A stretch of 64,000 nucleotides of DNA, from positions 1 to 64,000 of the IMG/VR virus record IMGVR_UViG_3300005264_000040. One strand, given 5' to 3'. Below, piece after piece: positions 3,275-62,331 of the stretch. Position 1 is the stretch's first letter. Each line of letters starts with the position of its first letter. The translations under genes were made by a program, and so were the position numbers. This DNA comes from a virus. The notes below the pieces were generated by a model, which was not told the DNA's origin, did not search any database, and worked only from the letters and a program-made list of their open reading frames with translations.

Positions 3275-3380
3275 AACGTCGCAAACCCACTATTCAAAGG
3301 GGTGCATTTGACGTTCAACGGTCCTATTATATATATATAATAGAGTCGTTACCCGTCATTTGCACCCCTAACGTTTCAGC
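3275..3380. repeat. Palindromic element, copy A (reversed relative to B and C)
   Basis: AGGGGTGC (3298-3305) and its inverted partner GCACCCCT (3362-3369) bound a 72-bp imperfect palindrome centred at 3333.5 on TATATATATA. The left arm extends outward through AACGTCGCAAACCC, and the right arm diverges after the box. The left arm is type 2 (AACGGTCCTATTA) and the right arm is type 1 (AACGACTCTATTA), the opposite order to copies B and C. It lies in a 348-base gap after the VWA gene. Confidence 0.9.
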
Positions 3381-3438
3381 TCTATAAGCGAGTTTTAGAA
3401 AATTCAAAACGTCTGAAATGAAGTACAATTTTACTAGA

Positions 3439-11646: not shown

Positions 11647-12126
11647 ATGGGTTTATTCAAATTCGAATTAGAAAGATGGTTACATAAATATATAGCAAAT
11701 GAAAGTGTAATAAATTTTGTGGAAAATTGGATTTTTGAAGAATACAAGAAAGAAGAATTTGATTTTGAGCACTTTTATCAATTACATAGATTTTTAAGCA
11801 AAAACAAAGGGGAAGTGCAATATCTTGTGGTTTGGAAAAAACTAAAAGAAATTTCTGGTTTAAGAAACCTAAGCGATAATTTTGATATCTATTATTTCAA
11901 AACAAAAAAAGAAGTAATTGAAAGTAGGATTTTTAGCCGTGTTTTCAAAAAACATGAAGAAGTTATTTATTTGTTTGCACCTGACAAAGCTGTTGAAGAA
12001 TTTATTCAAATACTGAAAAAAGAATATAGGTCACATGCTTCTAATTTATATCCATTCATATTAGAAGACGGAAGCTATTTAATTACAGCAGATGGAAGTA
12101 GAAATATTAAAACGGAGGAGGACTGA
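11647..12126 (+). CDS. Unknown 159-residue protein
   Basis: AAGGAGG precedes ATG 11647. The C-terminal YPFILEDGSY motif matches the end of the protein at 10327. The rest is helical with no known domain. Confidence 0.5.
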   Translation: MGLFKFELERWLHKYIANESVINFVENWIFEEYKKEEFDFEHFYQLHRFLSKNKGEVQYLVVWKKLKEISGLRNLSDNFDIYYFKTKKEVIESRIFSRVFKKHEEVIYLFAPDKAVEEFIQILKKEYRSHASNLYPFILEDGSYLITADGSRNIKTEED

Positions 12127-13207: not shown

Positions 13208-13558
13208 ATGGGAAAATTTGAAGAAAGAGTAGAAAAGGCAAAGAAATTGGCAGACAAACACGTATTATGGAATCAGAGTATGGTGGTAGAAGATATGTTA
13301 AAGGCAGGATTGTTGGATTTGGAAGAAGATTCAAATTATTTAGAAGTATTATCAAAAGAGGGAGAAGAATACGAAGATGCAATATTAGAAATATTTGAAT
13401 GGTATCTAGTAACTCCATGGTTAGCAAACAGATTAAAAGAAAAAGGTGAAGTTGTATTGGATAGTGGCAGTATGGATTTTTGGTGGGGGAGAACTACAAC
13501 CGGCCAATCAGTTATAGTTGATGAAGTAATACAAGAAATTGCAGAAGAGAACCTCTGA
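13208..13558 (+). CDS. Unknown phage protein with WYLVTPWLA...GEVVLD motif
   Basis: The start is ATG 13208 after AAGGAGGG. The 116-residue protein ends in a conserved-looking block (EWYLVTPWLANRL, GEVVLD, FWWGRTTTGQ) that resembles a small phage protein family of unknown function. No catalytic motif. Confidence 0.5.
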   Translation: MGKFEERVEKAKKLADKHVLWNQSMVVEDMLKAGLLDLEEDSNYLEVLSKEGEEYEDAILEIFEWYLVTPWLANRLKEKGEVVLDSGSMDFWWGRTTTGQSVIVDEVIQEIAEENL

Positions 13559-23475: not shown

Positions 23476-23486
23476 AAACAATGTTA

Positions 23487-23514
23487 AAAGACCCTTTTAG
23501 AGGGTCTTTTTTTA
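23487..23514 (+). terminator. Intrinsic terminator of the virion-type cluster
   Basis: AAAGACCC (23487-23494) pairs with GGGTCTTT (23502-23509), followed by TTTT. It ends the 19.2-23.5 kb unit. Confidence 0.85.
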
Positions 23515-23581
23515 TATAAATAAATCAAGATTTATTGGTATATATATAGTAATTTATTATAAAACACAGGAGGTGTTTAAC

Positions 23582-24250
23582 ATGGATAATACTTTTTTTG
23601 AAGAAAATATAGTTGGGATTCTCATTGAGGATCCCAAAATTTTTAGAAAGGAGGTGAAAAAGAACGGAATGATAGACCAAGAGTTTGTGGCACAACTAGC
23701 TAAGTATATTGTCACCCAACTCCAAAAAGATGAACCTATTTTTATAAAAGGGGAGGACGACTATTATGTTGATTACGAATACTATCGTCCTTCAACTTTA
23801 TTGCATTTGAAAAACCCAAAAGCGTTTAATTCGATGTTGGAAAAAATGATTAATTATGCAAGAAAGAGACTCCCGAGGATTGAAAGAGACTTTATTGTAG
23901 ATTTAATTGTAAAAGTACAAAGAGATTTTATAAGCCCATATAATTTCTTGATTGGTATTGATAATTATTTATCCGCAAACTACGATTATGAATCGTTCTA
24001 TACTGACGAAGAATTCGAAAGATTAGAAAATAGTATTTTAGAAAAAGAATCTGAAATTATAAGAACTAACAACAAAGAAGATTTCCTAAATTGGACTGAT
24101 AAAGGAGAGTTTATACCAGCATGGTATATCAACGATCGAATCGACGGTTTCTTTTATAAGTTCTTCAAAGATGTATATGATTACGACTATGACAATTCTA
24201 ATTTTGACTTCTGGGACTTTTTAGAAAGAAGAAGAATTTGGTATTCATAA
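23582..24250 (+). CDS. Unknown 222-residue protein with possible second internal start
   Basis: The ATG 23582 follows AGGAGG at 8 nt. No motif; rich in D, Y, F and charged residues. Inside the gene, 31 nt after the start, an 11-bp hairpin with ATT loop (23613-23637) is followed by a full Shine-Dalgarno AAAGGAGGTG (about 23648) and an in-frame ATG at 23669. A protein about 29 residues shorter could therefore be made from the same message, depending on the hairpin. Confidence 0.55.
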   Translation: MDNTFFEENIVGILIEDPKIFRKEVKKNGMIDQEFVAQLAKYIVTQLQKDEPIFIKGEDDYYVDYEYYRPSTLLHLKNPKAFNSMLEKMINYARKRLPRIERDFIVDLIVKVQRDFISPYNFLIGIDNYLSANYDYESFYTDEEFERLENSILEKESEIIRTNNKEDFLNWTDKGEFIPAWYINDRIDGFFYKFFKDVYDYDYDNSNFDFWDFLERRRIWYS

Positions 24251-24281
24251 GTATGTTTATAAATAAAAAAGGAGGTGAAAA

Positions 24282-24326
24282 ATGGAGAGTATTTTTACTC
24301 TCAGTTTCCATGGGTTGAGAGTATGA
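24282..24326 (+). other. Micro-ORF 1 (14 residues)
   Basis: The ATG follows AAGGAGGTG. The peptide is MESIFTLSFHGLRV. The first codons form a perfect hairpin GAGAGTA-TTTT-TACTCTC. It may be a leader peptide or only a ribosome loading site. Confidence 0.35.
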
Positions 24327-24405
24327 TTCTCATAAGCTTTTTTAAAAAGGTAGCTTAATCAAAGCGGGTTCCGCTTTATTATTTTATAAATAAGGAGGTG
24401 TCCTT

Positions 24406-24447
24406 TTGAAAAGAAACGCAATGTTGCTTTCGCAACATATCTCATAA
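24406..24447 (+). other. Micro-ORF 2 (13 residues, TTG start)
   Basis: The TTG lies 7 nt after AAGGAGG. The peptide is MKRNAMLLSQHIS. A perfect hairpin ATGTTGC-TTTC-GCAACAT lies inside it. A longer GCATCC/GGATGC stem follows after the stop. Confidence 0.3.
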
Positions 24448-24555
24448 AGCATCCGGTCATTCTTTGTGTGGTGTAAAAGATGGATGGTTGGATGCGAATA
24501 AAAAAATCCGCGAGCGGTTTCCGCTCTTTTTTATTATATAATAAAGGAGGTAGAT

Positions 24556-24615
24556 ATGAAGAATTTGATTAAAAGTTCAGCTCTTGAACTTTTAAACTTG
24601 ATAAGTACTTTTTAG
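24556..24615 (+). other. Micro-ORF 3 (19 residues)
   Basis: The ATG follows AAGGAGG. The peptide begins MKNLIKSS and is related to micro-ORF 4. A 9-bp hairpin AAAAGTTCA/TGAACTTTT lies within it. Confidence 0.35.
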
Positions 24616-24672
24616 TAGTAAAGTTTTGGGAGTGGTTTCCACTCCTTTTATTATATAACAAAGGAGGGAGAT

Positions 24673-24708
24673 ATGAGTAGATTGCTCAAAAGTTCCTACA
24701 ATCTGTGA
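24673..24708 (+). other. Micro-ORF 4 (11 residues)
   Basis: The ATG follows AAGGAGG. The peptide is MSRLLKSSYNL, sharing the L-(I/L)-K-S-S core with micro-ORF 3. A 9-bp stem CAAAAGTTC/GAACTTTTG spans its end. Confidence 0.35.
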
Positions 24709-24799
24709 GAGAACTTTTGTCTAATAAGTACTACTTTAGTAGTAAGTAGAAACGTGCGGATTCCGCATATTATTTATAAAAAAAGGAGGATGATAAAAG

Positions 24800-25357
24800 A
24801 TGGCAAAATTAAAGGTATTACCAGCAGGAGAAGCAAGTTATATAAGGAAAGACAAGCAAAACTATTATGTAGAGAATTGCTTGTTGAATTGGGCATACAG
24901 TTTAAACCCTAAAACAATAGGAATAACAAGAGTAGAAGGTACAGATGTATATGCTTTAGTGATAGATGGATATGTAATCAGGCCAACAGAGCATCCAATG
25001 TTCTATGAGGTTTTAGAGGAAAAATGTGATGATGCAATAATCATAGAACAAAACAAAGAAAACGAACCTGTCAAAATCAATTCTAAAATCCTTTTGAGAT
25101 CAGAAGGTATTCCGGAGGTTAATGTTGTAAAACATATTAATACTATGTTCGTTACTGTAGATTATGGCAAAAAAGAAGATACTATATTAGTACCTATTAC
25201 AACAAAAAGAATTGTTCTCGGTGCTGCAAGTATTAGAGGTGTATATTATTATTACGAAATAAAAGATGATATTATAAGCACAAAAATAATTCCAGCATCA
25301 GCAGATCTAAATTTGGAAGATATAAAATTATTATTAGAAGAAAAAGGAAATCTTTAA
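24800..25357 (+). CDS. Unknown 185-residue protein
   Basis: AAGGAGG precedes the ATG directly after the micro-ORF array, so the array is effectively its leader. Mainly beta-type sequence with alternating hydrophobic strands (VYALVIDGYVI, TMFVTVDYG). No known domain. Confidence 0.55.
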   Translation: MAKLKVLPAGEASYIRKDKQNYYVENCLLNWAYSLNPKTIGITRVEGTDVYALVIDGYVIRPTEHPMFYEVLEEKCDDAIIIEQNKENEPVKINSKILLRSEGIPEVNVVKHINTMFVTVDYGKKEDTILVPITTKRIVLGAASIRGVYYYYEIKDDIISTKIIPASADLNLEDIKLLLEEKGNL

Positions 25358-26022: not shown

Positions 26023-27027
26023 ATGAGAAGAATAATGGAATATGCCGGACGTATAGCTTATACGTCCGGCTATACTTTTATATTTGATGATATGAAATTT
26101 AAACTTTCTAAAAGAGTTACATCTTTTTATATAGATAAGTTTCATTCCTTTGTATTTTTGAATTCTAAAGATGAAACTTTGATATTAAATTTATCAACAG
26201 GAAAAATAGAAGGTACCTTGCCTCCAGCAACTAAAATAAGAACCTCTCCAACAAAGATTTATCTAATGCAAGGAAAAGAGGTTGTAAATGTTTATGACAA
26301 GTTTTTGTTAAACAGAATATATCAATATTCAATGTCAAAAAATAAATTATTCAAAGATTTTGATATATCTATAAGGTATATCGCGAGCCCAGATGAAGCG
26401 TTATTTATATATGATGGAGATAAAGTCTTGTATTGGAAAGATTATTTGACTTATCCATTAGAAGCAGACACAGCACCATATCCTGCTCAAGCTTCAGAAA
26501 TGTTTTCGGCAGGAGAATCTGTTAATATTTTGGATAAGAAACACGCAAAAATAGATTGTTATTCTTCGCTGTCACATCAAAAAGATACAAGTTATTCTAT
26601 TTCTTATTTTGAACATGAAATTGTTGATGCAAAGTTTGTTGAAGGTTATTTGAAAAATAGATTATTAGGATTAGTTATTGAAAGAAGATATCTTGTGTTG
26701 TATTTTAATGCAGACCCAATAGGTTCTGTAAATTTTCATATAAAACCTTATTATTCTTCTGATTTTCCCATTGCATTAGCGAACTTTGAACATTTAAAAA
26801 TATTAGATATACAGTATAATTTTTACAATGGATTTGTTGTAGCGTTATTACATGAAACAGATGAAGATGAATATTTCTTTTTTATAGCTCACAAAAACGA
26901 ATTCTTTAACTATAAAAAAATAATAGCAGCTAATAAATTAGATGGTAGATACGCCATAGACTTAAAAGAGATTGTAGTATGGCGAGGAGGGAAAATAAAA
27001 CGTATTCCATTAAAGGAAGGTGATTAA
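26023..27027 (+). CDS. Beta-propeller-like protein, 334 residues
   Basis: Repeated beta-strand pairs with turn residues (FVFLNSKDETLILNL, IYLMQGKEVVNVY, ALFIYDGDKVLYW) suggest a propeller fold, though no classic WD or kelch signature is present. It is the first of a run of similar proteins to 32.4 kb. A perfect 12-bp hairpin with GCT loop (26044-26070) lies inside the first codons, 21 nt after ATG 26023. Role unknown. Host- or virion-surface binding would fit the fold. Confidence 0.55.
   Translation: MRRIMEYAGRIAYTSGYTFIFDDMKFKLSKRVTSFYIDKFHSFVFLNSKDETLILNLSTGKIEGTLPPATKIRTSPTKIYLMQGKEVVNVYDKFLLNRIYQYSMSKNKLFKDFDISIRYIASPDEALFIYDGDKVLYWKDYLTYPLEADTAPYPAQASEMFSAGESVNILDKKHAKIDCYSSLSHQKDTSYSISYFEHEIVDAKFVEGYLKNRLLGLVIERRYLVLYFNADPIGSVNFHIKPYYSSDFPIALANFEHLKILDIQYNFYNGFVVALLHETDEDEYFFFIAHKNEFFNYKKIIAANKLDGRYAIDLKEIVVWRGGKIKRIPLKEGD
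26044..26070 (+). promoter_or_regulatory. Perfect 12-bp hairpin inside the start of a coding region
   Basis: GCCGGACGTATA, loop GCT, TATACGTCCGGC. It is GC-rich against its surroundings and encodes YAGRIAYTSGY. Position and stability suggest translational or RNA-processing control. Confidence 0.65.
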
Positions 27028-29761: not shown

Positions 29762-29773
29762 TTATGATATAAT
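29750..29773 (+). promoter_or_regulatory. Extended -10 promoter candidate
   Basis: TATGATATAAT ends at 29773, giving an extended -10 (TGATATAAT). No good -35 lies at the expected distance. It would transcribe the structured unit below. Confidence 0.4.
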
Positions 29774-29778
29774 AAAAG

Positions 29779-29887
29779 AAAGGGAGGTGGAAATTCTATA
29801 GGTTAATACCTTCAGGCATAGCGTTATAAGCTCTCTCGTAGAGGTTGAAAAAAAAATCTTAGCTGCGGATACCGCAGCTTTTTTTAT
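29779..29887 (+). ncRNA. Isolated fifth hairpin unit resembling the 24.3 kb array
   Basis: AAAGGGAGGTGG is followed by AGGT-TAAT-ACCT and CTCT-CTCGT-AGAG hairpins. A terminal AGCTGCGG-ATA-CCGCAGCT with T-run follows, then the Shine-Dalgarno of the next gene. No start codon follows the first Shine-Dalgarno at a usable distance, so the unit looks like RNA structure rather than a peptide gene. Confidence 0.55.
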
Positions 29888-29911
29888 TTTAAAAAAAAAG
29901 GAGGGAATATT

Positions 29912-42395: not shown

Positions 42396-42471
42396 TGTGA
42401 GAGTATAGAAAAAAAGTGAGAGCTACCCACCTGACCTGTATAATAAGAAGAGCAGGCAGGTGTGGTAGCAA

Positions 42472-42535
42472 GAGAGAATGAGAATGAGAGAATGAGAGAG
42501 AATGAGAGAGAATGAGAGAATGAGAGAGAATGAGT
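42472..42535 (+). repeat. GAGAATGA-type tandem microsatellite
   Basis: Imperfect tandem units of GAGAATGA and GAGAGAATGA, about seven in a row, purine-only except for T. It lies in the loop region between two long hairpins. Such tracts can slip, so length may vary between isolates. Confidence 0.8.
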
Positions 42536-42546
42536 GTCATAAATAG

Positions 42547-42608
42547 GGAGGTAGGAGTAGCAGAGGAGCGGCTTCGGCTGCTCTTCTGGTACTCCGCCTC
42601 CTTTTTTT
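42547..42608 (+). terminator. Very strong intrinsic terminator with UUCG tetraloop
   Basis: The left arm starts GGAGG at 42547, the right arm ends CCTCC at 42601, the loop is C-TTCG-G, and seven T follow. The stem is about 25 bp with few mismatches, the most stable hairpin seen in the window. Confidence 0.9.
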
Positions 42609-42627
42609 ATTGAGAGGAGTGAAAGAA

Positions 42628-43463: not shown

Positions 43464-43466
43464 CGA

Positions 43467-43572
43467 TCGTCGCAAATCCACTGTTCAAAGGGGTGCAAAT
43501 GACGGGCAACGACTCTATTATATATATATAATAGGACCGTTAAACGTCAAACGCACCCCTATGAATAGCGAC
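43467..43572. repeat. Palindromic element, copy B
   Basis: AGGGGTGC (43489-43496) and GCACCCCT (43553-43560) bound the same 72-bp core as in copies A and C, centred at 43524.5 on TATATATATA. The left arm is type 1 and the right arm type 2, as in copy C. Outer sequences GTCGCAAATCC (left) and its shortened partner GCGAC (right) extend the symmetry. Confidence 0.9.
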
Positions 43573-43710
43573 TTTGAGGTACTTTTTGGGTACTGTAATG
43601 CACCTCGAAATTACCATTTTTTCCAAAAATAACTCCAACAGAGAAAAATCTTTAAAATTACGATGGCTGTAATAGGCATAGAAAGTATCTTACAGAAGAA
43701 CAATATATCA

Positions 43711-62189: not shown

Positions 62190-62212
62190 ACCATGTGCAC
62201 TAAAAATATAGG

Positions 62213-62331
62213 AACGTCTGTAACCCGCTATTCATAGGGGTGCGTTTGAGGGGCAACGACTCTATTATATATATATAATAGGATCGTTAAACGTCATTTG
62301 CACCCCTTTGAATAGTGGATTTGCGACGTTT
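62213..62331. repeat. Palindromic element, copy C (most complete)
   Basis: AGGGGTGC (62236-62243) and GCACCCCT (62300-62307) bound the 72-bp core centred at 62271.5 on TATATATATA. Here both outer arms are kept, from AACGTCTGTAACCC on the left to GGATTTGCGACGTT on the right. The whole is a near-palindrome of about 118 bp. The left arm is type 1 and the right arm type 2. A small AACGCAA/TTGCGTT hairpin follows at 62335-62361. Confidence 0.92.

Follow-up and report, generated by a model that had tools for sequence, protein, structure and literature searches.

Four tandem units, each made up of the Shine-Dalgarno (SD) sequence AAGGAGG, a micro-ORF, an early stem, a terminal stem with a three-base loop and then a T-rich stretch, occupy positions 24,262-24,790 of a 64,000-base stretch of viral DNA (hereafter the window; the first 64,000 bases of a virus record of 177,768 bases), between genes 23582 and 24800. 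The layout of this array, whose units are each ~110-150 nt long, is statistically real and far above chance. Judged by its sequence, the array looks like a selected RNA element rather than a set of tiny genes. The explanation that we tentatively prefer, with somewhat less than even confidence, is that the array and a solitary copy at 29.77-29.91 kb constitute a five-copy family of intercistronic ribosome-parking RNA modules, which, working mainly in cis upstream of the 24800 operon, would serve as partial terminators and stability blocks. The ingredients of such a module are known, and their tandem combination is undescribed as far as could be found; our confidence in the function is modest.

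The original prediction had described four tandem SD/micro-ORF/hairpin units, and all of their parts are present where it had placed them (Table 1). The strong AAGGAGG was confirmed at 24269, 24392, 24544 and 24661, the ORFs of 11-19 codons were found to have 14, 13, 19 and 11 codons (that of unit 2 with a TTG start), and both the early stem and the three-base-loop terminal stem are present in every unit. Two further claims held only in part. The T-rich stretch said to close each unit is convincing in units 2 and 3 and weak in units 1 and 4, and the proposed terminal form GCGG-NTT-CCGC occurs in three of the four units, unit 3 carrying GTGG-TTT-CCAC. The terminal stems of units 2 and 3 are GC-rich and directly followed by a U-run, as in intrinsic terminators. 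In units 1 and 4 the tail is interrupted and contains A, which makes it poor by intrinsic-terminator rules, although perhaps not by those of the phage RNA polymerase. Because of these weak tails, only units 2 and 3 resemble ordinary intrinsic terminators.

Table 1. Positions in the window of the array units, their solitary relative and the flanking features.
Feature	Position	Strand	Remark
Intrinsic terminator AAAAGACCC-TTTTA-GAGGGTCTTTT with T-run	23486..23510	+	Closes upstream gene cluster
Promoter-like motif TTGGTATATATA	23535..23546	+	Occurs exactly five times in the 178-kb record, always on +
Gene 23582, upstream of array	23582..24250	+	222 aa
Unit 1 AT linker and SD	24256..24275	+	AAGGAGG at 24269-24275
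Unit 1 micro-ORF (MESIFTLSFHGLRV)	24282..24326	+	14 codons
Unit 1 competing stem GAGAGTA/TACTCTC	24285-24302	+	Mutually exclusive with TACTCTCA/TGAGAGTA
Unit 1 ribosome-edge stem TACTCTCA/TGAGAGTA	24296..24323	+	8 bp; starts 15 nt from A of ATG
Unit 1 middle hairpin	24334..24356	+	
Unit 1 terminal hairpin AAAGCGG-GTT-CCGCTTT	24361..24377	+	Weak T-tail ATTATTTTAT
Unit 2 AT linker and SD	24379..24398	+	AAGGAGG at 24392-24398
Unit 2 micro-ORF	24406..24447	+	TTG start; 13 codons
Unit 2 ribosome-edge stem ATGTTGC-TTTC-GCAACAT	24421..24438	+	Begins 16 nt from first base of TTG
Unit 2 long middle hairpin	24449..24495	+	
Unit 2 terminal hairpin GAGCGG-TTT-CCGCTC + TTTTTT	24512..24526	+	Strongest T-run among the four
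Unit 3 AT-palindrome linker TTTATTATATAATAAA and SD	24531..24550	+	AAGGAGG at 24544-24550
Unit 3 micro-ORF	24556..24615	+	19 codons
Unit 3 ribosome-edge stem	24569..24595	+	11 bp; begins 14 nt from first base of ATG
Unit 3 terminal hairpin GGGAGTGG-TTT-CCACTCCT	24628..24646	+	
Unit 4 AT linker and SD	24648..24667	+	AAGGAGG at 24661-24667
Unit 4 micro-ORF	24673..24708	+	11 codons
Unit 4 ribosome-edge stem CAAAAGTTC/GAACTTTTG	24687..24719	+	Begins 15 nt from first base of ATG
Unit 4 middle hairpin TACTAC-TTTA-GTAGTA	24729..24744	+	Absent from unit 3
Unit 4 terminal hairpin GTGCGG-ATT-CCGCAT	24754..24768	+	Weak T-tail ATTATTTATA
SD (AAGGAGG) of gene 24800	24783..24789	+	Junction context as in the units
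Gene 24800, downstream of array	24800..25357	+	185 aa; structure model poor (pLDDT 53)
Fifth, solitary relative	29768..29911	+	R1 match outside the training set; part upstream of 29859 read by eye
Fifth copy terminal hairpin AGCTGCGG-ATA-CCGCAGCT	29861-29879	+	Then T-run, linker and SD of gene 29912

A layout detector, which calls an SD, an ORF of 5-25 codons, a GC-rich hairpin with a T-rich tail and a next SD, returns exactly the four units from the 64-kb window. None of 2000 dinucleotide shuffles of 24241-24800 holds even a single unit by this detector, one of 40 whole-window shuffles has one unit, and one unit is found in 1.37 Mb of other phage DNA read on both strands. The fold of the whole array is more stable than that of its shuffles (z -5.65), and the individual units exceed theirs only moderately (z -1.8 to -4.4).

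Counted from the first base of the start codon, the early stem begins at 14-16 nt in all four units (offset 13, 14, 14 or 15), a spacing that puts it where the leading edge of a starting ribosome would lie. The leading edge of an initiating ribosome gives a toeprint at +15/+16. The early-stem score of the units is equalled by only 1-3 of 74 real gene starts (Mann-Whitney p 5e-4) and has a P of 0.0007-0.02 per unit against shuffles. The offset window of 13-15 has a P of about 0.1 per unit in shuffles, and since this 3-nt window was picked after the data were seen and the units share ancestry, the P values are not to be multiplied blindly. When the model places a ribosome on the start codon, the RNA downstream of that ribosome forms the edge stem, the middle structure and the terminal stem in each of the four units. 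The edge stem of unit 1 competes with another stem at +4; because the modelled ribosome would cover the latter, the +15 stem would be left free. The stop codon of the unit 4 micro-ORF sits in the loop of its edge stem. All stems except the terminal ones are AT-rich, and the middle hairpin is not retained between units 3 and 4.

The codon score of the micro-ORFs (53 codons) is -0.05, compared with 0.37 +/- 0.11 in gene samples of equal size, none of 2000 of which is as low, and because the stems dictate much of the micro-ORF sequence this score is no proof against translation. Shifted reading frames score -0.16 to -0.20 on the gene-frame scale. The micro-ORF codons are thus unlike those of the phage genes, and the peptide sequence is not visibly under selection. 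The four peptides contain no repeated codon runs and no shared or arrest-like motif, and they resemble one another only where the stems dictate the sequence. Collectively, the strong SD, the edge stem and the non-gene-like codons appear to favour a ribosome-binding role at the RNA level.

The junction between units, consisting of the terminal hairpin, an AT-rich linker and the SD, is conserved in all four units, and the linker preceding unit 3 is a perfect palindrome. The original prediction held that the sequence drifts while the layout is kept, and this is true in part: the junction is conserved throughout, and units 3 and 4, a diverged duplication, share 84% identity across the first 50 nt. 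All pairs of the terminal stem are held in the four copies, with two of the six pairs changed on both sides; these paired changes come from four related copies, two of them (units 3 and 4) mutual duplicates, and searches found no relatives of the array.

A covariance model of the junction, R1, was built from the four array copies and run on the 178-kb record. It gives one further copy, at 29,859-29,911 (34.3 bits, E 2.8e-4), the next best match having an E of 0.13. Because the junction recurs just once more in the record, it is a specific family within 6 kb rather than a generic terminator of the phage. Ahead of its hairpin, the fifth copy has an AT linker resembling those of the units and an SD-like GGGAGG; it has no ordinary ATG/GTG/TTG micro-ORF and no edge stem at the spacing seen in the units. 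The micro-ORF may not necessarily be the constant part of the element. Portal and RNA polymerase alignments led to 28 records of remotely related phages, many of which are fragments, and the same model detects no junction in any of these (best E 0.29).

These features can be joined into a mechanism in which the strong SD and start codon of each tandem copy would recruit a ribosome. Because the first base of the edge stem lies 14-16 nt from the start codon, this ribosome would meet the stem at its own leading edge and should pause, and the 11-19 codons would be translated afterwards. The module would be closed by a YGG-NTT-CCR hairpin with a U-rich tail that yields a partial 3' end, such that some transcripts would stop at the module and 3' exonucleases would be blocked, while the parked ribosome would shield downstream RNA from 5' decay. 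Four modules in series would separate gene 23582 from the 24800 operon and set the mRNA level of that operon. We infer ribosome pausing, partial termination, mRNA protection and common transcription from 23535 as elements of this mechanism. It is doubtful, but conceivable, that the modules form a new class of intercistronic RNA element, present in multiple copies, in which the initiating ribosome is clamped between a strong SD and an edge stem; a phage that has its own multisubunit RNA polymerase would use them in tandem to segment and tune operon mRNA.

The main rival of the ribosome-parking reading is neutral cassette duplication. The array would then be tandem debris, i.e. a terminator-linker-SD cassette that was duplicated or left over from gene loss, with ORFs and hairpins as functionless by-products. 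A terminator directly ahead of the SD of the next gene is a common arrangement in this genome, so a cassette of this kind could duplicate neutrally. The early stems fit such an origin poorly, given that they lie at one offset in all four units and are stronger than those at nearly all gene starts, and the terminal stem has been retained despite changes on both sides, with the strong SDs all intact. The clear duplication of units 3 and 4 and the absence of the junction from the distant relatives noted above are what would be expected of debris, but on balance we regard this explanation as unlikely.

The original prediction also raised the possibility of a multi-step transcription attenuator of gene 24800, in which translation of the micro-ORFs would decide whether the terminators form. 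This proposal did not stand up well, and we consider it improbable. The order of SD, short ORF, hairpins and terminator ahead of a gene is that of an attenuator, and unit 1 has two mutually exclusive stems (GAGAGTA/TACTCTC and TACTCTCA/TGAGAGTA). However, none of the four units has a clear antiterminator against its terminal stem: freeing this stem costs 5-12 kcal/mol, of which new pairing of the 5' arm regains at most ~2 kcal/mol. In addition, the distance from stop codon to terminal stem is 13-65 nt, which puts the stem out of reach of a ribosome positioned at the stop codon. With this gap and no clear antiterminator, classical attenuation is unlikely. The peptides, with neither a single-codon run nor a shared arrest-like motif, the loss of the middle hairpin between units 3 and 4, and the codon use also argue against it.

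The original prediction had further suggested a set of small RNAs or a ribosome decoy. Quite improbable as well is such a decoy function, whereby short stable RNAs acting in trans would capture ribosomes or the anti-SD and so draw translation away, perhaps with peptidyl-tRNA drop-off from the minigenes. Tandem pairs of strong SD and start codon, bounded units, multiplied copies and non-gene-like peptides would suit such a role, but four units in one operon are few relative to cellular ribosomes unless very strongly transcribed, and the units have no separate promoters. That the array encodes four very short functional peptides is the least probable of these explanations, since good SD spacing and an ATG start in three of the four units are set against peptides with no common sequence beyond the parts dictated by the stems, codon use unlike that of genes, and a fifth copy without an ordinary micro-ORF.

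Other candidate interpretations were tried and rejected. A TATAAT-like linker serving as a promoter for each unit would begin transcription inside the SD. SD sequestration as a common switch was dismissed because the SD pairing probabilities (0.25-0.8) overlap those of ordinary genes. The best sub-threshold match in Rfam, to the sRNA SpR08 on the minus strand, reaches 32.6 of 80 bits and was judged to be a chance likeness of AT-rich hairpins.

No Rfam family is matched at the gathering score anywhere in the record, window included, no DNA match to the array was found in phage records, and the publications searched describe no comparable phage system. These results, together with the search by the junction model, agree with the initial statement that no such phage system was known. 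It had also been suggested that related phages be searched for arrays with GCGG-NTT-CCGC stems; a collection scan for this stem followed by AAGGAGG returned 115 stretches, none with a full unit.

Several known systems share some of these ingredients. In all four units a strong SD has no normal gene behind it (11-19 codons follow), an arrangement that recalls the STAB-SD or polypurine 5' stabilisers of Bacillus (cry genes, hbs), in which a ribosome sitting on a strong SD guards the RNA downstream against 5' decay and no long ORF is required (PMC3997798). In Bacilli, a strong SD alone, even without a start codon or translation, stabilises the RNA downstream (PMC3997798), and this supports the protection reading by analogy only, as the host may differ. 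STAB-SD stabilisers are single and lie near the 5' end of the gene's own leader, whereas the array has four in tandem in an intercistronic position, each of which also carries a micro-ORF, an edge stem and a terminal hairpin of its own. Leader-peptide attenuators of the trp/erm/vmlR type likewise combine an SD, a short ORF, alternative stems and a terminator before a gene. These normally have one leader per gene and an antiterminator or anti-SD switch; no such switch was found for the terminal stems of the array, whose ORFs are too distant from those stems.

In the bar minigenes of phage lambda, too, translation start signals are followed by very short ORFs, and these can tie up translation. 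Lambda bar ORFs have two codons and act via drop-off of one tRNA species, whereas the ORFs of the array, at 11-19 mixed codons, exceed the two or three expected of a bar-type minigene and are set in structured modules. Type III toxin-antitoxin RNA arrays (ToxI) resemble the array in having tandem structured RNA repeats and a terminator before a gene. ToxI repeats are near-identical, are about 36 nt long and lack individual SDs and ORFs. In contrast, the array units are diverged, ~110-150 nt long and each equipped with an SD and a hairpin end, and gene 24800 matches no family, with no ToxN-like identity in Pfam or PHROGs.

The record represents a tailed phage whose genes include those for a family-A DNA polymerase, helicases, baseplate and portal; its genome has a GC content of 29%, and a tRNA/tmRNA search returned no genes. 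The phage encodes its own multisubunit RNA polymerase (L003:7676-14030, minus strand; record 91.7-98.0 kb). This includes a 1,473-aa protein in which the C-terminal part of beta is fused with beta' (L003:7,676-12,097, minus strand) and, beside it, a separate protein that carries an internal beta domain. Relatives of the RNA polymerase were found in IMG/VR (n = 23; 31-37% identity over long stretches, on contigs of up to 181 kb), and none were found in genome contigs. The portal and RNA polymerase proteins share ~25-37% identity with those of the nearest phages found.

Because motif TTGGTATATATA at 23,535 sits between the terminator at 23,486-23,510 and gene 23582, we infer that gene 23582, the array and gene 24800 may be one transcription unit read from 23535. 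The motif is likely to be a phage-specific promoter; the remaining four copies lie at 175033, 175402, 175508 and 176405 of the record (plus strand; 175.0-176.4 kb), and every copy has an inverted repeat shortly upstream (CTTAAAAA in three of the five).

Protein searches of viral contigs, Pfam and PHROGs found no relatives of genes 23582 and 24800, and a search of viral contigs found none for the DNA polymerase. By tblastn, gene 24800 has no matches, and gene 25381 and the DNA polymerase have distant matches only. A structure model of gene 28697 was too poor for use. Very stable hairpins also occur within coding sequence, close behind the start codon, in gene 26023 (26044-26070, z -5.1) and gene 23582 (23613-23637, z -2.5); these have 12 and 11 bp, with GCT and ATT triloops.

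Additional RNA-like elements were observed elsewhere in the record. Three genes have a common 5' leader element (L007:11090-11145, 11785-11841 and 13258-13313, plus strand; record 175.1-177.3 kb). It comprises a stem of 9-10 bp, with five pairs changed on both sides, and loops (TTCCCA, GCTCTCA and ACTCCCA) that complement the bases between SD and ATG (TGGGAA, TGAGAGC and TGGGAGT). The predicted pseudoknot would block the start site, and the element is possibly an undescribed translational regulator; no further copy was found in the record and none that was convincing in relatives. An identity of these pseudoknot leaders (175-177 kb) with the array units was considered and found no support (model R2, only 14.9 bits at 24291, E 0.025). 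In the same region, gene L007:11838 has a GC-rich, hairpin-dense leader of ~330 nt (L007:11402-11838; record 175.4-175.84 kb), which is perhaps a structured RNA and has no Rfam match at threshold.

Within the window, three related self-complementary intergenic elements of ~120 nt (..AGGGGTGC..CAACG-CTATTATATATATATAATAG..GCACCCCT..) lie at 3275-3400, 43464-43620 and 62200-62330. The intergenic gap at 42396-42627 holds a purine-rich tandem repeat (GAGAGAATGA) and a 12-bp TTCG hairpin (z -10). Repeats with a 63-nt period (GAGGACAACTGTCTTC..) at L003:3072-3528 (plus-strand coordinates) are inside a minus-strand ORF of 1,110 aa, probably a repetitive structural protein.

If the array is debris, it still illustrates the multiplication of terminator-SD cassettes. 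If the modules truly hold ribosomes, the level and stability of the operon mRNA would be set by stacked ribosome-binding blocks. The array would then also offer a compact natural test of the effect of an edge hairpin on initiation, and an example of RNA-end marking by a phage with its own RNA polymerase.
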